The notes under the pieces: model-generated
Told to the model about the DNA's origin: nothing
Database searches by the model: none
Seen by the model: the letters and a program-made list of their open reading frames with translations, nothing else
Made by a program: the position numbers and the translations under genes
Shown here: in pieces, positions 21,638 through 38,988 of the stretch
How positions within the stretch are numbered: the first letter of the stretch is position 1
How the letters are laid out: every line of letters starts with the position of its first letter
Source of the DNA: Coptis chinensis
Lineage: Eukaryota; Streptophyta; Magnoliopsida; Ranunculales; Ranunculaceae
Assembly (NCBI GenBank): GCA_015680905.1
Contig: CM027384.1
Location: 71,891,501-71,955,500, forward strand
DNA: 64,000 nucleotides
Reading direction: 5' to 3'

Positions 21638-24600
21638 ATGGAAGTTGAAACACAAACATTCCCATTCCCTCTCGACTCATCATCTCGTGAATGCATGGTC
21701 AGTAACGACTACTCTCTAAGTTTTAATCACGACTCAAACTTCACCATGATCAACGGACAAGAAAGTGACAGCTGTGGATCATCATCAACGACGTCTGCTG
21801 CAGTGAAGGTGCAGAAAGTATACAGGAGTTACCGGACTCGACGTAGGTTAGCTGACTCTGCTGTTGTTGCTGAAGAGCTCTGGTAATAATAATAATAATG
21901 TTTCTTTAAACTAAAAATGTTGTTTTGTTTATAACTAATTTGGCAGTGATATATGCTTAGGTGGCAAGTTCTGGATTCGGTTAGATTGAACCACAGTACA
22001 ATTTCCTTCTTCAGTTTTCAGAAGGCAGAGACGCCTGCTTCACGCTGGAATCGAATCAGCTTGAATGCTTCTAAAGTAATTATTTTATGTATATATTAAA
22101 TAAGTTTTATTTATTCAATCTTTTTAAGATCTAATGTGTGGATTTTTTTTTTTATTGTTTTTTCTGTTTTTAATGAATTGTTATTTTTGTGTGTGTGTGG
22201 GTGTTATCCGACAGGTTGGTAAAGGGTTGTCGAAAGATGCCAAAGCTAAGAAACTAGCTTTTCAGCACTGGATTGAAGCTGTAATTACTAATCCCCTGTC
22301 CTTTCACTAATTACTGGTTATCAGCTTTTTAATTTCTTTGAAAATTTTGGTATAGATTGATCCACGACATCGGTATGGACATAGCTTGCACTTGTATTAT
22401 GAGCAATGGTGTACTGCAGATGCGGGCCAGCCTTTTTTCTACTGGTTTGTACCTTAGCTCTCTGCATTTGAGAATTTTTAACTTTTTATTGTAGAGTTCA
22501 AAATTGGACTAAAACCGGTTGGAATGAGATTGAGAAACTTGTTAGAGTTGGATTAAATTTGGTGTAAAGATGTCAATTCCGACATCAAAATGAACATGGG
22601 CTTGGTACTTAGTTAGGGTGTTATGTTCAGCAGGAAGTACATGATCAAATTTACAAAGTGAAGTTTGGTTGACATTCTTAAAGGATTACATAAGAGGCTT
22701 TTATAACTGTTTGATTAATTACCGAGATGAAGTACACAATGGGCTATTTGTCTGTTTTGCTGCCCAACTTTGAAACCTTTCCATGACGTTGATGCATTTG
22801 CTAGAAAATATTTCCAGTGTTAAATCTATTTCTTTGTCCACATTGCACAGGCTGGACATTGGAGATGGAAGAGACGTTGACCTCGAGAAGTGCCCAAGAT
22901 CAAAACTTCGGCAACAGTGCATCAAGTATCTAGGACCTGTATGTTTCTAATTTTCCATAGGAGCAGAACTTTAACTTCTCAAGTAGATTGTATTTTCATT
23001 GTGTTGACGCCTGTTTATCAGTGCTAATTCTGAGGTTATTCTTGATCATTCTTGACTGAAATCAGCAAGAGAGGGACCACTACGAATACATAGTTGTTGA
23101 AGGGAAAGTTGTTCACAAACAGAGTGGCGAGCTATTGGATACAACTAAAAGATCGAAAGAGGCGAAATGGATATTTGTGATGAGCACCTTTAAGAAAATC
23201 TATGCTGGCGAGGTAAGAGCAAATGGACAAAGATTAATTATTAGTTAGGCCTTGTCTTTTATCTTGCGCTGTATTTTTGGCTGACTAGGAACCTTATATC
23301 ATGTTAACCTGTCCAGAAAAAGAAAGGGATATTTCATCATTCTAGCTTTCTTGCGGGAGGGGCTACATTAGCAGCCGGAAGACTTGTTGCAGTAGATGGA
23401 GTGCTCAAGGTAAGGGTATTATTACTTTGGCCTTGTTGTTCATAAGTCTTGTGAGTAGCAAGTTAACTGAGGTTCAAATGGATTTCAATTTGGGTTTGAG
23501 ACTGTAAAGCCTAAATGACAGATGAAAGGAGACGGGATACTCCAACATGAGCTGCCAAAACCTATATTCTCCAACATGGTTTTGGCCATTTTTGGTATGG
23601 TGTGGCCATCTTGTCCTTGCAAAGTGGGGTTCTCGGACTTTAATATTTTGGCTAGATCCAATTAGTAACTTCATAATGGTTTGTTGACCTACTTGCACAT
23701 AACAAATAAATGAATTTGCGTTTGAGTAGGACCTTTCTAACGAAGTTGCCTAAGATCAAACGAGCTTTTGTAGGATGTGGTTTTTAAGGCAACTCGTGCT
23801 TCCCTCTCCCTTCCTGCCGTATAGAAACACTAACACTGATATGATGCTGTGAAGAATTTGTGTTTGATGGGTATCTGCATTCATTAAAACATTGCAATAA
23901 CACAACCACCATGTGGTCCTTGCCTCATTATGATCTTTGTTCTTATGAATTTTTTGTAGTCAAAAGATATTTAAAGCATACTTTGTAATTTGGTTAAAGA
24001 ACCAGATTTCTAGCGAGTAGATTGCCACTCTTGCCCCATGTGGTCCTTGCCTCATTATGATCTTTGTTCTTATGAATTTTTTGTAGTCAAAAGACGTTTA
24101 AAACATACTTCATAATTTGGTTAAAGAAACAGATTTCTAATGAGTAGATCGCCACTCTTGCCTACATCTTTTATCTAATAGTAATAATGGTGTGGGAGAA
24201 CAGGGAGGGAGTGGTTTGGGTGTGTATGTGCAGACTTCCAAACATGATCAAATGTGTTCTTCCTTTGCAGGCTATCTGGGCATACAGTGGACATTATCGT
24301 CCAACTGATGAAAACCTTAACAATCTTTTAGACGTCCTCAGGGAAAATGGAGTCAATACTGATGAAGTTGAGGTATGCAATTAATCCACATATTTCCTCA
24401 TATAATCTATTAAATAGTTTGTGAACAGTAAAAGAATTAACTAAATAAGTGCAACGTTACCTCCTTCCCTTGCTTCAGTGTTCTTATTCCTGAATACTTT
24501 GGCCATGCCATACTGAGTTTTTTGCCGTTTTCAGATACGCGCATCAACTGAAGATTACGAGAACAATGGAGATAGCAAATCAATCGCAGGAGAGATTGCA

Positions 24601-25047
24601 AATGGAGTTCCTTCTAATCCCATAGCTCCTTCAGATACTAAGCCTTCACCAATTGAAGTTCCTATTAAAGTGCAGAAAGACCAATCCTCCAAATCAGATG
24701 AAACTGTCCAAAATGGAAGCAGAGCCAATTACAAGAGAACCTTATCTGGTGGTCTTCAGAGCCCAAAAGCAGAGGTTCCAAGGAAAGAATTACTGCAGAG
24801 ACTCAATTCCAAGAAGATAGTGAGTTCATACCAACTCGGGCATCAACTATCATTAAAATGGTCTACTGGAGCTGGTCCAAGAATTGGCTGTGTTGCTGAT
24901 TACCCTTTGGAACTGAGGTTACAAGCCCTGGAGTTTGTGAATCTCTCACCAAGAACCCCCCCTACACCATCTTCTCGACAGCTTGCTAGCCTCATTTCGC
25001 CCACTCGCTCCACATCTGAACACTGCAAAGCGGAGGCTTTTGTATAG
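21638..25047 (+). CDS. IQM: IQ-motif calmodulin-binding protein, IQM family
   Basis: Nine exons join in frame: 21638-21882, 21961-22075, 22215-22280, 22356-22444, 22851-22938, 23066-23212, 23317-23409, 24271-24372, 24535-25047; all introns are GT-AG. The product is 485 aa, about the size of Arabidopsis IQM proteins. An IQ motif lies at residues ~52-66 ([14 protein letters not shown]), followed by EELWWQVLD and [14 protein letters not shown]. The central part carries the family-specific blocks [43 protein letters not shown] and [13 protein letters not shown], and the C-terminal part has [14 protein letters not shown] and a Ser/Pro-rich tail. IQM proteins bind calmodulin without needing calcium and have been linked to light, stomatal and stress responses in Arabidopsis; which member this is I cannot say. 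No defects seen. Confidence 0.93.
23911..24162 (+). repeat. 127 bp tandem duplication in IQM intron 7
   Basis: Two copies (23911-24037 and 24038-24162) start ATGTGGTCCTTGCCTCATTA and end CCACTCTTGCC, with about a dozen differences. The duplication makes intron 7 the longest of the gene (861 bp) and does not affect coding. Confidence 0.9.
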
Positions 25048-25269
25048 ATAATAAATGTACCAAGCATCTTCCCTTCTCCTGGATGCTTTCCTTCCATCTA
25101 TTTCATGTGTTTCAGAATGGTGAAGTTTTGTCGACATCTCATTGAACTTACGAGAATGGAGTATTGTTCACACCACCTTCCCATCCTTCTATTTTTGTCA
25201 TCTTTTATATTGATCATAGATGTGAGAGCCTCGAAGGTATGGATAGTGTTGAGATAGTGAAGAAGTGAT

Positions 25270-26466: not shown

Positions 26467-29400
26467 TCAGTGTAGTTTGGCGTTATGAGTAAGAATCCTC
26501 CGCCCAATCTGCAACCAAATGGCGGAAGAACAAGAACATAGATAAGTGCAGCATTTCTACATAAATCTTATATTGAAATTCACAAATGGCGTAACTGCAC
26601 ATTATCTATTACCTTAACCAAGTCCTCGAACATTGCACTTACGCGACTGAATTCATGATTGATCATCTCCAAGAAATGGATGCACCTTAAAAGAGGAAAT
26701 CTTAAATCAGAGAAGCACATAATATGAGTTAAAAAAAGTAGATTTAGAGAATAGGGACTGCGTGTAGAGAAAGTAAAAGTAACGTGCAGCTAATTAAAAA
26801 GACCATAGCAAATTCAAAAACAGAAGGATCATATGACACCTTTTGATAGAGAAACAACAATGACATGCTAAGATTGTTGAAATATTGTGACAACAATATT
26901 ACGTTGAAGAATCTAACTTATGCTATTACAAATTGCTGAGGATTGGAGAGGCGACCAGGGTTATAACTTATTTCTACCTAAGACCCAGTTGCGCTAGTAT
27001 TTACATTGCTGCTTTGGCAGCTATGTTAGATGGTTTTACAGGAAAACCCACCACATGCGAGTTTCAAATCTTATGCAAATTATATACAGGCTAAACATGA
27101 GGTTGATGAATTTTTTGTTGATGGAAGAATCTTGTTTAAGAAGACTATCCTTCTGTGATATCTTATCCTCATGAGGTCACTAGATCCTAACCTTTTCTTT
27201 GAAAACAAATTTGATCATGAGGTTCTCAGTAGGAACACCCTGTATCAGAATTTTGATAACTGTTTCTAAGAAGGTCATGACCAATTAATCTTCTAGCGAG
27301 AAGTTGGACCCAAAACTTGTGATCAATAAGTATAAAAAAGTGTCTCCAAAGAATTTACCAGGTGGTACAGCAAAACCGAACTTAAGTAAACAATGGCTGT
27401 ACACAACTAGTATGGAGAAAGGAGAAAGGAGAAAAGAGAACAGTAATGAAGATAACTAGTGAATGCTCATGGGGCTGGTAGTTATGACTTCTGACATCAA
27501 GATGAACATGGATGTAGAAGCTTTCAAGAGCAGAAAAGCAAAGCGGAGGTGGTGGACCAAATGCCTTTCCACTGTGAACTGTACTAATAATGCTTACCAA
27601 CACATAAGGAGGTTCAAGTGCCGAAGACAGCTATACCAACGACTTCTAAAGCTACTGAAATTGGGTGTGGTTGACACATCCTATACTTAAGGCATTAATG
27701 ATTAAAGAAAAAATTAACACTGGACATGCCAGAACTGAAAAGAAAAGAATAAATGGTATCATTGAGAATTTGAGATGACTGAATTTTATTTCTTAGATAG
27801 GAATGGATCTCATAGGACAAGTTCTATCATGGTACAATTAGGAGCCATCAAAATGCTTTCAAAGTACAAAAAAAATGAAGATATGCTTCAAAATCGTTTC
27901 AAACTTACAAATGGCAATAACAATGTTATTGCAGAATACTATTTTTGGAGGGAACATTTATATTTTATAAAAAAACCAATTTGCTACTACCATCATTTTT
28001 ATACTGGTGTGGTGGATTTCTAGTCCGTATACTGGTAATAAGAAATACTAGCGTGCTTAATGACCAATTTTTTAACAAAAAAAGGGCGACGATTCTTATT
28101 ATGGCAAATAGTTCCTCAACATTCAAGCAATATACTTCAGTAAAGCAGAGACTGAAAATACTAAAGAGTCTGAAGGTAAAAAACCACAAGTAAATTATGT
28201 AACATTACTAACTTCGTTCTTTTGTATGTCAATTGCAAGGTGTGCAAGCACAAATGAAACTTAAATTTGACTCCATAGGCAAGCATAGTAATATGAAAAT
28301 GTGACCGAAGACACTTCCGAATATCCCTTCTCACCTTTCCTTATCCTTCTCGTCTAAAGCTTGGCGAAAGCCAACACAAGCAAGTATCACTCGCCGAGCA
28401 CCAATACTGCAACACCAAATAGAGAAAAGAAATAAGCTTCAATTCAGAAGTGATTTAACAATTGGACCGTAAGAAGCATGCATTGCGTTCCCTTACATGC
28501 TTTTAAAAATTTACAGAAGAGCCCTTGTGAATATGCTCATTGTTTGGAAGACAAATCCTATTATCAAAGCATTCCTCTCTACTGAGCCGTCTGTGTTTAC
28601 TTTCAATGTTCCTTCAGCATAGAGAAGAAGTAGCACTTGTATAGGTGCATACTTGCATGCACAGGAAGCAACTCAAGCAGGTCAATTATAGCCAAGAATT
28701 GGAAGCCATCAGAGGTGGATACAATGCTGCAGCCAGATTGACTTTAAGTGAATCATATTGGCTTCAAATTTACTGAATACCATAAATTGCATCACTAAGA
28801 GGGAGGGTCCACCTTGGTATTGTCTGAACTCAATCAGACTAAAACAGGGCATTAGTAAACAGTTTATTGATTTTATTTCCTTTCTTCATGTTTATAGGGA
28901 AACTAGTAGTGTTGCTGATCATTCAGCATCACTATGTAATTCTTTTGAAGAGAATGTAGTGTGCTTTGTTCCTTCTCAAGGCACACAAATGGGAAGAATT
29001 GTAACAGAGGAGAAAACTAATAGGTTGTTCTCAAGGAAATATTATTGCGGATTCCTCGTACGTGATGACAGATGTCATAAATAATACCCATATAGGATAA
29101 TTAAAATACTAATTTTAGTTATTAAAAACCGTCCAACCTATACACTTACAGTAAATGCTGATGATATATATATATTTAAAGATAACGAGTGAGACCCATA
29201 ATAAAAAGTTGCGAAACTTCTTGCAGGCAAGGATACAGCAAGTGCTTTAGTACTCAGAATTTTTTTCCTTTTAAACTAATAATCAAATGCATTTCAGCGA
29301 GTTCGATTAGTTTATCCAATCCCAAGACACTGTTTTGGCAGAATTGATGACTTTCGACAGAAATGATTTTAGGAACAACACAAAATTGTGCACGACGTCG

Positions 29401-29975
29401 AGTTTAAGATTGTTAACTTACTATAAGCAAGGTCCTTTGATTTTGTGAACACAAACATCAACCTTACAGAAATCCACAACAGGTTGGTACCTATAAACAA
29501 ATTAGAAGTAAACCAAACATTAAGTGCTTAATAAATTTCTTTAAAGAATGATAAATAAGGAACATTACTATTAGCTTAAAAAAATTGTAGAGAGTATGAA
29601 ACTAACAGATAATTGTTCATTTCTTGGATAGTCTTGCAACACTCTATGCAGGACTCTTCAATAATATCAACCAGAAAAGCCGGATCATCTTCTAATGAAG
29701 TTTGAAGATTTTTAAATTCAGTGGCATCCAATATCCCCTATAACAACAACCACAAAAAAAAGGGTGTAACCATCAGACCTCCTCACTACATGGATACATT
29801 TTGATTATTGTAATAAATTTGAATTTCCAACTACATTTCCTAAATCAACTTCAAATCAATCAATCAGGAAAAAAAACACAAGTACTGAAATGAAGAAATG
29901 TTGATTATATACCTCAGCAGTCATATTGTTGAGGAGCTTGTTAAAAAGTTCTTGATAATATTTCACATGCACCAT
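26467..29975 (-). CDS. AHP: Histidine-containing phosphotransfer protein (AHP type), phospho-acceptor His present
   Basis: Six exons on the minus strand: 29975-29913, 29737-29607, 29490-29422, 28406-28335, 26685-26613, 26508-26467; all GT-AG. The product is 149 aa, the usual AHP length. Family blocks are GILDATEF...LQ (exon 2), VVDFCKVDVCVHKIKG with the phospho-acceptor His80 and the conserved K83-G84 (exon 3), and YIGARRVILACVGFRQ (exon 4). AHPs relay phosphate from cytokinin receptor kinases to nuclear response regulators. The loop after His is atypical: PCLY replaces the usual serine-rich run, with length kept. The first exon has no defects. The gene is the downstream member of a tandem pair; exon boundaries match its neighbour exactly. 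A TATA box lies at 30035-30042. Whether it transfers phosphate efficiently is unknown. Confidence 0.9.
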
Positions 29976-31630: not shown

Positions 31631-34600
31631 TTATTTGACACTACTCATGACACTCCCGTCTGTAGGCAGCTGCAGACAGGCGAACAGATCTCCCATCACT
31701 ATTGCTTTTTCTTTATAAGCTATGATTTTCCGTCCAATCTGCAACCAAATTGCCTCAAAGCAAGAACATAAGGACACTAACTGAAAAGACAATGTCTTAC
31801 AACTTACAAAACAGTTTCAAATATTGGTAGTATTGGAAAGCTCTCACCAAGATCTTCTAGATCACGTTATCTTAAATACTTTACTGGTAATATGTAAACC
31901 TAAGACTTTCAAAAGAAACGTCATGGACTAAACAGCATGGAGTTCTTTGAACAAGGAGACGTGTAATGAAGTAGTCCTACGTGCATATGAAGCAGTACAC
32001 CTAAAAGCTTTATATGTGATACTAACTTAAAGTCGTTTGTACGAGTTGGTTTGGTTTTAATGAAGTGAAGAGTGTATATTGTTGTGCTCATTGTGAAAAT
32101 TTTCGAGTTTGAATAACATTTTATTCACAAATGATCGGAGAACATAAGTCTTTAATTCCTAGTTTTCATAGTTGACATTAAATGAATCCTCTAAACTAAA
32201 TTGTCACAAGGCATTGACACCAATAACTTACTACAAATTTCATGGACACAAAGTATACAAACTCTTGACAAAGTAAATAAGAGTAAGTAGGTATGTTCAA
32301 CATAGCTGCATAAATATTCTGTTTAAATTTAAAAAAAACTGCACATTATCAGTTACCTTAACCAAGTCCTTGAACATGGCACTTACGCGATTGAACTCAT
32401 GACTGATCTTTTCCAGGGTACGAATACACCTAAAACAAGGAAATATTTAAATCAGAGAAGCACAAACCAATGTAAGTGAAAAAAGACTCACTGCACATAA
32501 CAGGGATCAATGGATCATAAAGAGAAAGTAAATGCAATTGTGCAGCTAAAAAGGAAAACAAACAAATTGGGAAACACAATGGCACATGCTCATTCAAAAA
32601 TAACAAGGAATTGCTAAAATTGCTGGAAACACAATGGCCATAATTAGAATGTTGAAGATTCTAAGTTATCCCATTAAACAGCGAGGGTTGGAGAGGTGAC
32701 TAGGGTCTTAACTTGTTTCTACAATTCTACTTAGATGCAACTGTGATCCTATATATTGTTTATTTGATGGCTGTCATAAGCGAACCTGTGTTTACAGGAA
32801 CCATCCACTGTGAGTTTCAACTTTCAAATTTTATGCAGATTTTGTACTAGCTAGCTAAACACGAGGTTGATGTATTTTCAGAAGAATCTTGTTGAAAAAA
32901 AAACTATCCCGCTCTGAACTCTTATCCTCAGGCTGTCACAACAAACTTGATGATGTTCTCAGAATGTAAACCTTTGCTTGCTCGTATTAGAATGGTTCTT
33001 ATTCTTTAAAGGGAGTATTATTTAGGGAGAGCCCGAGTATTATTTAGGGAGAGCCTATTATGCTGAAACAGTCAACAGAGGAGGATGTGTGATGGCATTA
33101 AGCAGATAACTCCTTGAAATCAACAATTACTGGTTTCAGTTGTTTACACGGTCTTTATCTTTCTCACCAGTGGCGGACGCCGATATGGGTGACATTACTT
33201 GGTTTTAAATTAAGTTACTTCTAGCCTAGCAAGGTCAGGAAGATTGGGAATGTGTTAGGGTATCTTTAGGAGTTGATCAACCTATGTTGACAATAGCGAA
33301 ACCAGCTGTTCTAGAATCTGTCTGCAGATGGATTTTTGAAATACCTTGGATTGCTAGTAAAGATAAAGAAACCTTTTTGGCAAGTGGCTGCTGATATATG
33401 ACAGTTGTAAATAATGTGATAACTGTTCCTTGCAAGCTCAAGACTGATCTTGCAGAAATTTGTACCAAATACTTGTGATCGATGACATAGAGAACCACGT
33501 GGTACAGAAAACAGGAACTTTAGTAAAAGTCTAAAAGATGGCTGCGTGAAACTAAAGAGGAGAAAGGAGGAAACAGAGCACTTGTAAAGATGACTAAGTG
33601 AATGATCAGCTGCTGGTAGTTCTGACATCATCTTTATACTGGCGTGTTGGATTTTATGTCCAAAGAATTGGTAATCCGAAACACTAAAGTTTCCTAAACA
33701 ATGACCCCTTTAAAGAAAAGGCTGACAAATGTTATTAAGGAAAATAACCCCACATTTAACCACTTGGCAAACTCAAGCAATATACCTCTGTCAAATCAGA
33801 TTGAAAAATATTGAAAGCAAAAGGAAAAGACAATGAAACTCATAACATTTAGTATTTATTTAGTCTGTTTGACGCAAGAAGTTGCGCAATGAAAACTTAA
33901 AATTGACTCCATAGGTAAGCATAAATTAACTGAAAGAACTTAAGAATATCCTTTCTCACCTTTCCTTGTCAGCTATATCTTGCCTGAATTCAATGCAGGC
34001 AAGGGTCACTTGCTGAGTACCCATACTGCAACACCAAATAAAGAAAAACAATAAGCTTCACTGTAGAACTGGTTAACAATTGGACCATAAGAAGCATGTA
34101 TTATGTTCCCTGACATGCAAAAGGACAGCTTAGAGAAGAGCTTTGTTAAAAGTTAAAACCATGGCTCATTGGTTGGAAGCCAATCCTATTTATCCACAAA
34201 CATCCCTTGGGACAAGAAACTAGCGAAGAGTAGTTCTGGACAGGGAAAGTTCATACACAGGATTAGAGAATTCACAAACATGAGTAGTTGAAGTTTAATA
34301 AATTCCACCCTATAAAAGGGTTTGTAACCATAAGGGATCTTCTTGGGCATTGAGTAGCTCCTTGCTACTTAACCTATTATTTGTAACACTATATCTTTAT
34401 GCTATTAATGAATTGAATTTTACCGATCAAAAAAAAAAATCTACCCTATGCTGCTCAGACTGCAGCTAAAGGGCATGCTCCTTTCAACATGGAGTTTCTA
34501 TAAGCCCCTAGGATATCTTCCCTGCTTTCCTCGAGTATATCCTTTTCATAGGGACTACTTACTTTACATATGAAGTCAAGCCAATTCTATAGATGGATGA

Positions 34601-36464
34601 CCAAGAAATGGTAGGAAAATCAATTACGGCGCAATCATAAGGGGTTAATAGCTTGAAGTGGGTACACCATAAAAAGAAAGCTGGATAAAATCCCTTGCTT
34701 TATTTGCAACATCTAAGGAATTTGGCACCATCAGATGTCTAGATGGCTAGAGGCGACTATACATCCTTAACTAAGTTACATTGACACGGATAGGTGTATT
34801 CGTATCCAACACGGATTTGAAGCATCTGACACGGTGAAATATAAAATATTGAGGTATATCACATACAATATGTGTCCGAGATGTGTCCGACACGGACAAG
34901 AGGATACGTATCCAACATGTAACATAGGTTCTTAAAGATAAAATTGAGCTAACAAAGGAATGATTCCTTGTATTTTTAGTACTGGATATCTACTTCGAAG
35001 ACTGCCTCATCACACCATATTTAAATAAACCAAGATCAGACCTCCACACAGAAAGTTAATGATGATAATAACTACTGCTAGTAGAAGCAGAATACAATTA
35101 ATTGTGAAAAGGAGACATTTATTATCGGTGGAAAAAATAGATAAACAACTAGTGCAATAACTTATTATCCGTGGTACTTAGATCAGTACATGTCAAAATA
35201 AGCAAAAGATCATAATGGATTCCTCGTATTTGATCACATATGTCGTAAATTAAAACCAACAGGATCATCAAACCATTTGTTTAATGGTTTCAAACCCTCT
35301 AACTTATACACATTCACTACATGTCGATGTTATCCTGTACAAAACTGAATAAGTTTAACACTTACTTTTGACCGACAGTTTTGATCCAACACAAGATTAT
35401 TCTATCTAAAGCCACTGAAAAACTTCTAGCATGCAAGGGTATAAGTGTATAACGGATTCCTCGTACTTGATCACATATGTCATACATAAAACCAATAGGA
35501 TCATCACACCATTTAGTTACTGGTTTGAAACGTCTAACCTATACACATTCGTTTGGTGCTGATGATATGTCCTGTACAAAAACGAGTAAGTTTAACACTT
35601 GTTTTTTTACCGAAAGTTCTGATCTGACACAAGATCCTTCTAAGTTGGCTAAAAGCTTCTAGCATGTGGTGTAGGATACTGCAAATACATATATAAGTAC
35701 GTGATACACAGAAGAAAATATTTCACTAAGCAAAATTGGCGATTTTGAGTCATTTAGCCAATTCCAAGTCACAGTAAAGATACAATCAATTTAGAAACAA
35801 GCAAAACTAATAGGGCACTATGTTGAGTTTAATATTGCCAACTTACTATAAGCTAGTTCCTTTGATTTTTATAACATAAAGATCAACCTCACCGAAATCG
35901 ACAACAGGTTCCTCCCTACAAACAGTTAAACAATGAATGAAACGTTAAGCCTGCTAAATTTTTTTGAAAAATAATTCACTAAGGAACATAATTAGCTTCA
36001 AAAAAATGTCGAAGAGTATGAAACTAACATATAATGGGTCATAGCTTGGATAGTCTTGAGACCCTCTTTGCAGTACAATTCAATCATGTCAATCGTAAAA
36101 GACAACTCCTCCTCAGAATCTTGAAGCTTTTGAATTTCAGCGAATTGTGCATCCAACATTCCCTACAACCAAAAAAACAGAAAAACATTACCACTCTCTT
36201 AACTGCATGGTCTCATTTCATTAAATCAAACTATGGAAACAGTTATTCACAAGTTATCTATAACAAAAAATTTAACACAAACTGAAACAATTTTCAAGAA
36301 ATGAATCAAGTAAAAGATAAATCTACAACAATCAAAAGGAAAAAAACTTAATCCGCTTGAAATGAATCAAAGTACTGAAATGAAGAGATGTATGGTTATA
36401 CCTCAGCAGTCATCTGGCTGACCATTTCGTTAAGACGTTTTAGATTTTGTTTAACAATCGCCAT
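31631..36464 (-). CDS. AHP: Pseudo histidine-phosphotransfer protein (AHP type), acceptor His replaced by Ile
   Basis: Six minus-strand exons at positions equivalent to AHP gene 1: 36464-36402, 36162-36029, 35915-35847, 34025-33960, 32429-32357, 31738-31631; all GT-AG. The product is 170 aa. Exon 2 (GMLDAQFAEIQKLQD) is closer to canonical AHPs than that of gene 1. In exon 3 the block reads VVDFGEVDLYVIKIKGTSLY: residue 81, where His accepts phosphate, is Ile (codon ATA). Lys84-Gly85 remain. Exon 4 is two codons shorter than in gene 1, and the last exon extends 22 codons further to a TAA. No stops or frameshifts, so the ORF is under no obvious decay. In Arabidopsis AHP6, Asn replaces the His and the protein inhibits cytokinin signalling; by analogy this may be a negative regulator. 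Confidence 0.88.
34300..34434 (+). repeat. LINE-like 3' end with poly(A), in AHP gene 2 intron 3
   Basis: A unit ends TTGAATTTTACCGATC followed by 11 A, the form of a plant L1 LINE 3' terminus, and is preceded by TGTAACACTATATC. It is absent from the equivalent intron of AHP gene 1. No coding remnant; too short to be sure. Confidence 0.3.
35218..35665 (+). repeat. 236 bp tandem duplication in AHP gene 2 intron 3
   Basis: Copies at 35218 and 35454 both start GGATTCCTCGTA and end CTTCTAGCATG. A single diverged copy is in intron 3 of AHP gene 1 (from about 29050), so the second copy arose after the genes split. Confidence 0.85.
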
Positions 36465-37548
36465 TCTTGCTTTATTTCTTCTCTAAAAGCCTACCACAGA
36501 CACCACACACACATGCAAAGTAGAGAGAGGATCGGAGAGAAAGCAATAGTAACGAAGATGGACAAGACTAGAGATTGGAGTGTTGTATATATAGGAGACT
36601 AGAAACTGTACTATCATTTTTCAAGCTGTAGCTGGCTGCTCGGCTGTATCCAAACTCAATTAATAAGATTCTTTTATATTTAATGAGGACTCTTTAATGA
36701 GTATTTATGTAGTAACCAAAATTACAGATACTTGCTTGTTTTGGTTCTTCTGCATTGAGGTTCACCAACCCCAACAAATTGTGCCACGTTTTGAAATTCT
36801 CTTTCCCTCCTTTTATGTTATGGAAGGAGAGAATTGGGCTTCTTTCCTAATTTTTATTCTGTTTCTTGGAGAGGAGTTCTCAGTCCCTGGTTTTAGAATA
36901 TCTTACATCACTAGTTAAATGGATATGGAGCAAAACAAAGAGACGAAGCAGATAAAACAGTTCTATGACTTCTATCTTTCTTTCTTTTTCGCTATCATCC
37001 TATGACTTCTATCAAACAAACACAGTTTTTTTTTTTATCAAATTTGGCCCTGTCTATTCTGAAATGAGATTATACCCCAATATTATTATAAGAGCTTGCC
37101 CAAGCTTTCTCGCGGAGCACCTACATATTTTAGATGTCGTTTGACTGGCTCCACCGGAACCACACTCGGGCTAAACTTGTTAATCGTTCCTTCCATGCTT
37201 CGACTCATTTATCTAACTATATCAGTGAGGCACCATATTTTATAGCTCGTTTAGTATTGAACAAATCTAATCAATAATATCTTACAGTATTCTTCAAATC
37301 CAGTGCAGCCACAACTTCAAAAATACAGATCCACAACTCCACAAGGTGTGGAAAACCATATTTTTTCCTCTAAAATGTCTGACAAAGATAAGATCAATAG
37401 AGTACATGAATTATGGTACCTTACAAACATAATACCTCCCCTGCGTTCTCTTTTAATAGAACAATAAAAAAAAATACAGATAGTACGCAAACCAAACTAT
37501 TCCAATAGCACACTTATTTGTTTACCAGAGACATCCAAGAGTACCAAC
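36465..37548. other. Intergenic region between AHP gene 2 and the copper chaperone
   Basis: Promoter and leader of AHP gene 2 on the left, 3' UTR of the chaperone gene on the right. No other gene or repeat recognised. Confidence 0.6.
36585..36592 (-). promoter_or_regulatory. TATA box of AHP gene 2
   Basis: TATATATA on the minus strand about 120 bases before the start codon, in the context CTCCTATATATAC. Confidence 0.6.
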
Positions 37549-38916
37549 TTAAACAACAGCAACAGCTTCTGCTGGTGCTTTAGTTTCAACTTCTGCAGCT
37601 TTCGGTTCAGCTTCTGCAGGTTTTGATTCGGCTTCACCAGGCGCTTCAGCTTCCCAGAAAGCAGTCTTCTTTCCTGTTTTGGACACGGTCTGAAAAACTG
37701 CATCGGGCTGCACATTACCTATCACTGTCACTTTCTGCTCCTCTATATTCACGTCATATGAGTCAATGCCTAAAAAACAATTATACACCAAAGAAAGGTA
37801 TCGGTCCCTTGCATTCAATAGATATACGAAAAATCACAACTAAAAGATAGGTTGTACTTATAAGCATGCCCTGAAGATCATAACATACAGCTTCATTGAA
37901 TTGAAATTGCAGAAACGAAGAAGAAGAAGAACCAATCACTCTAGAAAGCTCACAGGACAGCGGCTTAGTTAGAACTTAGGTTCAAACAGAAATTACATAG
38001 GATGATTCAGAATTCGTGTTTAGATACTACTAATAACAGTCCAGTATTATTGCGATATAGCATTTTAGTTAGAGACGAAATGAATGAGAGTATTTTTTAG
38101 GAAATAGTACAGATCTCGTAGTCATACTTCAACTGTTTGTCATTATTATATAATAAACCAAAACAGTAAAATATTCACAGAACGCTATATACAAGCTAAA
38201 ACTCTAACAATCCCTGTAAAATCATTAAGCCGTGTAGTATAGATAGATGACATGGCTTTAAATATCAAGAAGTTGGATATGAATGCAAAACACTTGATTA
38301 TTTGAATAAACACATGCATCTAAAGTCTAAAAGTGGGTTTGCATTAGAATGAATGCAAAACACTTGATGAAAGAAGCAATGACGAGCCGAGAGCTTTGTT
38401 GTCAGGAGGGAAAATGTGGTATAAGGGGTCATTAACTGTACTATCTACATACAGAATTTGATAAAACAGAAACAGTCCCTAAGCCACAAACCCACAAAGA
38501 CCCATGGCCATGTCCGTCGTCGACAAATACCATCACTTGGGCAAATGCTAATTTCTATAAATGTTAGTCCATTGACTTACTTTGCAGATCTAAATTTTGG
38601 CCATCAACGGTTGCCAATTCTCAAAAGATAGTATAAATTTCTGAGAATGATTCATATGAATACACTATAATAAATGGTCATGTACTCAACTAAATAAAAC
38701 ATGTGTATATTGAGTAGAGGTAAAACGGTATCAAATATATTACTACCTTCCATTTTGTTGAGCACCCTCTTTACTGCCCCAACACAGCCTTGACATGACA
38801 TACCAACCTTGAGTACCACTGTCTGCAAATTAAATATTAATCCCTGAATAAATCTAGTCAAATAGTCAATGAAAAAATTGATAAATCCAAGAGATGAAAA
38901 TTTGTACCTGAGCCAT
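37549..38916 (-). CDS. CCH: Copper chaperone, CCH/ATX1 type (HMA domain)
   Basis: Three exons: 38916-38908 (only Met-Ala-Gln), 38822-38747 and 37769-37549; GT-AG introns. The 101 aa product has the heavy-metal-associated fold with the Cu(I)-binding MSCQGC at residues 11-16, then [12 protein letters not shown] and the conserved [15 protein letters not shown] Glu/Ala/Lys/Pro-rich tail of about 30 residues follows, the plant-specific extension that separates CCH from ATX1. Such proteins carry copper in the cytosol to P-type ATPases (RAN1/HMA5). The tiny first coding exon is normal for the family. A TATA box is at 38989-38996. Gene appears intact. Confidence 0.93.
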
Positions 38917-38988
38917 TTGCAAATGAAGAAAATAAGGGGAGAGAGAGAGAGTTTTGGAGTTTGAGAATTGGGTTGGGGTACTTGGGGC

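Follow-up and report, generated by a model that had tools for sequence, protein, structure and literature searches.

Results

A tandem HPt pair with different residues at the acceptor site

Pseudo-HPts are known as non-phosphorylatable brakes on cytokinin signalling. In the 64,000-nucleotide stretch of Coptis chinensis DNA analysed here (the window, located at G000:C8:71891501-71955500 of the searched 936-Mb genome), one of two neighbouring HPt genes carries Ile in place of the phospho-acceptor His, which raises the question of whether it is a maintained gene of the pseudo-HPt kind or a gene in decay. This gene, referred to as gene A, is a plant HPt (AHP) homologue that runs on the minus strand from 36464 to 31631 and comprises six exons and 170 codons, with no internal stops and with GT-AG dinucleotides at all five introns. 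Gene B (minus strand, 29975 to 26467, 149 amino acids) is arranged head to tail with it. The features of the two genes are:

Gene A exon 1, 36402..36464, minus strand, ATG at 36464
Gene A exon 2, 36029..36162, minus strand, flanked on both sides by GT-AG introns
Gene A exon 3, 35847..35915, minus strand, acceptor site VDLYVIKIKG
Gene A acceptor-position codon, 35870..35872, minus strand, ATA (Ile81) in place of the phospho-acceptor His
Gene A exon 4, 33960..34025, minus strand
Gene A exon 5, 32357..32429, minus strand
Gene A exon 6 with lengthened tail, 31631..31738, minus strand, stop moved by a one-base gap relative to B at 31705
Gene B exon 1, 29913..29975, minus strand
Gene B exon 2, 29607..29737, minus strand
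Gene B exon 3, 29422..29490, minus strand, VDVCVHKIKG, His codon CAC at 29445-29447
Gene B exon 4, 28335..28406, minus strand
Gene B exon 5, 26613..26685, minus strand
Gene B exon 6 through the stop, 26467..26508, minus strand

Exon 3 of gene A, whose boundaries lie exactly at 35847-35915 (minus strand), reads ...EEPVVDFGEVDLYVIKIKGTSLY. Its ATA codon appears as TAT at 35870-35872 on the plus strand and is matched by the CAC of gene B, which confirms the starting claim of the first-pass annotation, namely, that Ile stands against His at the acceptor site of a tandem AHP pair and that all three bases of the codon differ. The residues around the site are V-I-K-I-K-G in A, V-H-K-I-K-G in B and V-H-Q-L-K-G in ZmHP2, with no gaps nearby. 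The position is unambiguous, since no gap interrupts the alignment of the surrounding stretch with six HPts of solved structure.

The six exons of each gene match in position and phase, with GT-AG at all introns. The proteins are 54% identical, and about a quarter of the coding bases differ. Since the alignment of A with B extends over blocks of exon and intron (ca. 64-71% identity), the whole gene was duplicated in tandem. When the genome was searched at the DNA level with 801 bases of gene A, using a program that skipped very common words, A and B were the sole matches at E 0.001. Within exons 1-5, the two genes are separated by gaps of 6, 3 and 6 bases only and read in a common frame. Exon 6 has a one-base gap, which deletes the short stop, and a two-base gap; beyond the final lysine that both proteins share in exon 5, the tail is 35 residues long in A and 13 in B. 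Thus, the description of A as a six-exon gene with consensus splice sites and no internal stop is correct, but the absence of frameshifts relative to B applies to exons 1-5 and not to exon 6.

Inspection by eye revealed several further elements around the pair. A TATATATA stretch at 36586-36593, about 120 bases upstream of the gene A ATG, is a possible TATA box. Immediately upstream of A, a gene at 37550-38920 on the minus strand encodes a small heavy-metal-binding (copper-chaperone-like) protein with an Ala/Pro/Glu-rich tail. Downstream of the HPt pair and on the opposite (plus) strand, a multi-exon gene at 21640-25050 carries, close to its start, a calmodulin-binding motif of the IQ type.

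HPt relatives in the genome and their phylogeny

The HPt family was surveyed by exon-wise searches and local modelling; only the best candidates were scored, and the following list is, therefore, a lower bound:

L052, C5:81.2 Mb, AHP1-like, named from the AHP1 query
L055, C2:73.5 Mb, HPt gene with decayed copies
L053 and L054, C3:92.3 Mb, two presumed AHP4-like genes
L051, C3:58.9 Mb, presumed AHP6-like gene with Asn at the acceptor site
L058, C1:81687 kb, divergent HPt gene with decayed copies
X63, C5, 8.400 Mb, in tandem with XP, among the genes closest to A and B
XP, C5, 8.406 Mb, in tandem with X63, among the genes closest to A and B
X50 (L050), C3:33158613-33159038, intronless copy of XP with an intact frame
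L056, L057, L061 and L062, C9:79525, C5:93192, C2:13622 and C2:13920 kb, copies of L055, ca. 89-92% identical
L059 and L060, C1:82227 and C1:81828 kb, copies of L058, ca. 90-92% identical in long blocks

On sequence and motif, we presume L053 and L054 to be AHP4-like and L051 to be AHP6-like. For L051-L055 and L058, the protein used is a manually assembled core spanning exons 2-5, and the models of A, B, X63 and XP (the last covering exons 1-5) were guided by homology. Intron positions and phases are common to A, B, X63 and exons 1-5 of XP. X50 differs from XP by ca. 0.09 substitutions per codon over 131 aligned codons and is a processed retrocopy of XP with an open frame. Three loci, C2:16917286, C2:10132457 and C4:35298282, each match exon 5 of the XP/X50 type with a single exon and may be further relics of this clade. 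Searching the genome exon by exon for the Pfam family retrieved no matches; an NCBIfam search gave no relevant match, and a plasmid search gave none.

The copies of L055 constitute a burst of decayed HPt copies. In-frame stops are present in exon 2 of L056 and L057; within the stretches examined, exon 2 is absent from L061 and L062, and exon 5 from all four. Likewise, the reading frame of L059 meets a stop codon late in exon 2, and L060 has no exons 4-5 within the stretch examined.

An unrooted maximum likelihood tree was built for 16 sequences, six of them HPts from the PDB and the others the window pair and its same-genome relatives, so that all AHP4- and AHP6-like members were from this genome. 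A and B were sisters (94.6/98), X63 paired with X50 (99.3/100), and A, B, X63 and X50 were split from all other sequences with a bootstrap of 98, the nodes among the canonical genes being weak. When XP was added, both the A+B and the clade splits were kept (94.8/97). The clade formed by A, B, the two C5 genes and the C3 retrocopy thus stands apart from the AHP1-, AHP4- and AHP6-like genes found.

A tree in which A was forced together with the Asn-bearing L051 was rejected (delta logL 48.9, AU p 3.7e-5), and gene A is, therefore, not an AHP6 orthologue. Since the genome holds a separate Asn-bearing AHP6-like gene, the change in A is an independent loss of the His, and the analogy with AHP6 drawn in the first-pass annotation extends to function at most. 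The acceptor codon is CAC (His) in B, X63, X50 and XP. Because B and the other clade members carry His, the sequences place the origin of the Ile on the A branch, later than the A-B duplication. The suggestion that Asn was an intermediate had only codon distance behind it and does not follow from the sequences, which speak neither for nor against it: a His-Leu-Ile path is equally short, Leu variants exist in legumes, and the relatives whose codon was read have His.

Motif and fold

In phmmer searches against seven plant HPt sequences of the PDB, the best matches were at 1.7e-20 for A (first-draft model) and 8.2e-22 for B. Scores against the Pfam Hpt family (PF01627) were 18.1 bits for A and 22.9 bits for B, both under the gathering cut-off of 24.6 bits, which X63 (31.0 bits) and X50 (25.4 bits) passed.

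The HQxKGSSxS-type motif was scored at 15 positions taken from Table 1 of PMC12785465, with XP left out. Mismatches numbered 8 in A (Ile counted), 6 in B, 6 in X63 and 7 in X50. The corresponding counts were 3 in the AHP6-like gene, 0 in the AHP1-like gene, 0 and 1 in the AHP4-like genes, 1 in L055 and 2 in L058, where Asn follows the His and Ile replaces a Ser. Five of the six PDB chains had no mismatches and MtHPt2 had 3. According to a rule given in one section of PMC12785465, a protein with more than one motif deviation is not a functional HPt. The rule is strict: it fails B, but it also fails L058 and MtHPt2, whose structure is solved.

Gene B is a non-canonical HPt, with neither the SS behind KG nor the Q behind the His, and is unfit as a canonical reference; to describe the pair as an active HPt plus a dead copy would be too simple. 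If an authentic (active) HPt is defined by the acceptor His together with the motif, A has neither and B has the His with 6 of 15 motif positions off. Under a broad definition of pseudo-HPts (HPt genes that are intact apart from replacement of the acceptor His), A belongs among them. Hydrophobic residues fill 33 alignment columns in 10 or more of the 11 canonical HPts compared; 29 of these columns remain hydrophobic in A and 30 in B, which argues for a preserved fold.

Selection on gene A

To what extent A has been maintained was assessed by simulating neutral decay, with 'intact' defined as a start codon, an open frame through exons 1-5, ten splice dinucleotides and freedom from frameshifts. 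The probability of finding A intact was 2.8e-4 at the lowest rate and at most 3e-5 at the other rates; a second run at the middle rate gave 1e-4. The possibility that A has been a pseudogene ever since the duplication was thus rejected. All three A-B gaps in exons 1-5 are multiples of three, compared to 7/43 or 11/54 gaps in the non-coding DNA that could be aligned, depending on which of two settings was used. Low-penalty intron alignments gave 30 of 120, but these inflate the number of gaps, and the stricter settings were used. The decayed copies of L055 and L058 provide an internal control: at ca. 89-92% identity to their sources they already have stops or missing exons, while A is intact though further from B than these copies are from their sources.

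Divergence between A and B amounts to a dN of 0.29 and a dS of 0.47-0.50 (two counting methods). Pairwise dN/dS was 0.63, or 0.73 for exons 1-5 only, and neither value differs from 1 (2dL 2.6 and 1.0). On the A branch, dN/dS was 0.99 in the set with X50 and 1.39 in the set with XP, with a likelihood interval from ca. 0.47 to above 10; with all branches free, the values were 1.35 and 1.99, indistinguishable from 1. It follows that strong purifying selection on this branch (dN/dS below ca. 0.45) is excluded. On the B branch, dN/dS was 0.43-0.45, with 2dL values against 1 of 3.5 and 2.8 that lie under the 3.84 threshold. A single ratio for four genes gave 0.78 and 0.84, with no difference from 1. 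For the pair B-X63, dN/dS was 0.28 and below 1 (2dL 12.3), over a divergence that nearly saturates the silent sites. Tests for a dN/dS on the A or the B branch that differs from the rest were not significant (2dL 0.2 and 2.1 in the X50 set, 0.8 and 2.1 in the XP set). Of 35 sites that the three His-bearing relatives of A have conserved, 9 are altered in A, which by our estimate is about the neutral expectation. A Fisher test on clade-conserved sites (p 0.009) is confounded, B being both reference and member, and was not used as support.

The first-pass annotation had named a dN/dS near 1, combined with a lack of expression, as an argument against a pseudo-HPt. The dN/dS found on the A branch (0.99-1.39) is of this order; nonetheless, the simulation makes neutral decay since the duplication unlikely. 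Taken together, the intact frame and splice sites and the dN/dS of about 1 fit a gene that was maintained through most of its history under weak or altered protein constraint.

Discussion

Losses of the acceptor His are known from several HPt lineages, and gene A is a further case. PMC6518804 describes a clade, HPT-X, that includes one grape HPT with Ile at the acceptor site and two Medicago HPTs with Arg, the latter lying in a cluster on chromosome 2 and showing weak expression; the same source mentions Leu variants in soybean and Lotus and Arg, too, among other legumes. The Ile of A is, therefore, unusual, as had been claimed, but not without precedent. HPT-X as described resembles A in several respects: the acceptor His is replaced, Ile included, the genes form a clade of their own, and those of Medicago are clustered on one chromosome. 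Unlike HPT-X as described, A has a paired neighbour that keeps the His, so the Ile is later than the tandem duplication; the comparison with HPT-X is by description only. Text searches of a grape cytokinin paper retrieved no passage on the variant.

Like A, AHP6/HPT-N is an HPt homologue without the acceptor His. A differs from it in having Ile rather than Asn, in having lost the motif around the site and in its position in the tree apart from L051, AHP6 itself being outside that tree. The pseudo-HPts that PMC3866579 and PMC12785465 assign to the AHP4 branch, rice OsPHP1-3 among them, are also HPt homologues that lost the His, whereas A lies apart from the AHP4-like genes found here. HP-like genes of Populus and Prunus, whose role is given as unknown in a section of PMC3866579, resemble A in their non-canonical motif and lack of His, a likeness by description only. 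The best known-structure matches of both A and B are maize ZmHP2 and rice OsHP1 (PDB 1wn0, 1yvi), which have the canonical motif with His and from which both genes are far diverged. At least two independent origins of pseudo-HPts were inferred in a passage of PMC5975490, and dicot members of the clade of rice OsAHP1/2 are described in PMC12785465 as having long branches and a tendency to loss.

We favour, at a probability of about 0.5, the reading that A is a tandem member of a fast-evolving non-canonical HPt branch that is dead in phosphotransfer and acts at most by binding partners. In the proposed sequence of events, duplication would have been followed by replacement of the phospho-acceptor His with Ile in A, a loss separate from that in AHP6. 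Judging from the chemistry of the site, A would be unable to carry phosphate in the His-Asp relay, and the statistics show that it stayed coding for most of the time since the duplication. If A is still active, its non-phosphorylatable HPt fold may bind the receiver domains of histidine kinases or response regulators; alternatively, it may dimerise with active HPts. By analogy with AHP6 and rice PHPs, the most likely activity of such a protein would be to dampen the relay, through partner binding, in the cells that produce it. The motif is changed at 8 of 15 positions in A, versus 3 of 15 in the better-preserved AHP6-like gene, so binding of the usual partners may be lost too. As summarised in a section of PMC12115143, binding of AHP6 to receptors is not directly shown and its partners are still open, and PHPs in monocots and dicots do not act quite alike.

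A close rival, to which we assign a lower but substantial likelihood, is that A is a dying gene, functional after the duplication and later released from constraint, in which the loss of the His and the altered tail are early decay and a stop has yet to land. The dN/dS of about 1 on the A branch, the lost short stop of exon 6 and the Pfam score under the cut-off are all as expected for such a gene. Expression of comparable genes points the same way: the Medicago HPT-R genes are weakly expressed in the account of PMC6518804, and among TM-HPts without the site or motif, two of three annotated transcripts are virtually not expressed according to a part of PMC12785465. The age of the decay is what limits this explanation, since the simulated probability of finding A this intact falls from 0.35 when 10% of the branch is neutral to 0.04 at 30% and 0.006 at 50%. 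Thus, late decay alone fits, and decay limited to the last 10-30% of the A branch is possible.

It is rather unlikely that the clade as a whole left the phosphorelay, with A, B and the C5 genes taking up a different role in protein binding under rapid, possibly adaptive change that made the His optional and its loss of little effect. All four members scored break the motif (6-8 of 15 positions, versus 0-2 in five other His-bearing genes of this genome), four genes with intact frames have a one-ratio dN/dS that does not differ from 1, and tandem duplication was repeated and accompanied by an intact retrocopy. Against this, the His is kept as CAC in all four relatives of A within the clade; the B branch looks constrained, short of significance; B-X63 dN/dS is below 1, though with silent sites near saturation; and the motif rule is strict enough to fail MtHPt2. 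Slightly less probable still is the idea that the clade consists of binding decoys with an HPt fold, for which phosphotransfer is dispensable, evolving under positive selection in the cytokinin or another relay, and that an idle His simply went in A.

That the Ile is an artefact of assembly, base calling or exon placement is very improbable, given that three bases differ inside a clean exon with boundaries as in B and relatives, and that A and B are only 74-75% identical in matched stretches, which makes mis-merging unlikely. That the phosphate goes to a different residue of A, or that Ile is harmless for the relay, deserves even less credence: the acceptor His is essential in HPts, and by eye there is no His in the stretch of A aligned to the acceptor helix.

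The value of the locus is limited by the fact that like losses are already described, with the same residue in grape, and that the neighbour B is itself non-canonical. Should the clade indeed consist of decoys, the A/B pair would capture the loss of the His within a single tandem step. More generally, two tandem copies with unlike acceptor residues, together with relatives in the same genome, would allow one to test whether loss of the His alone alters function.
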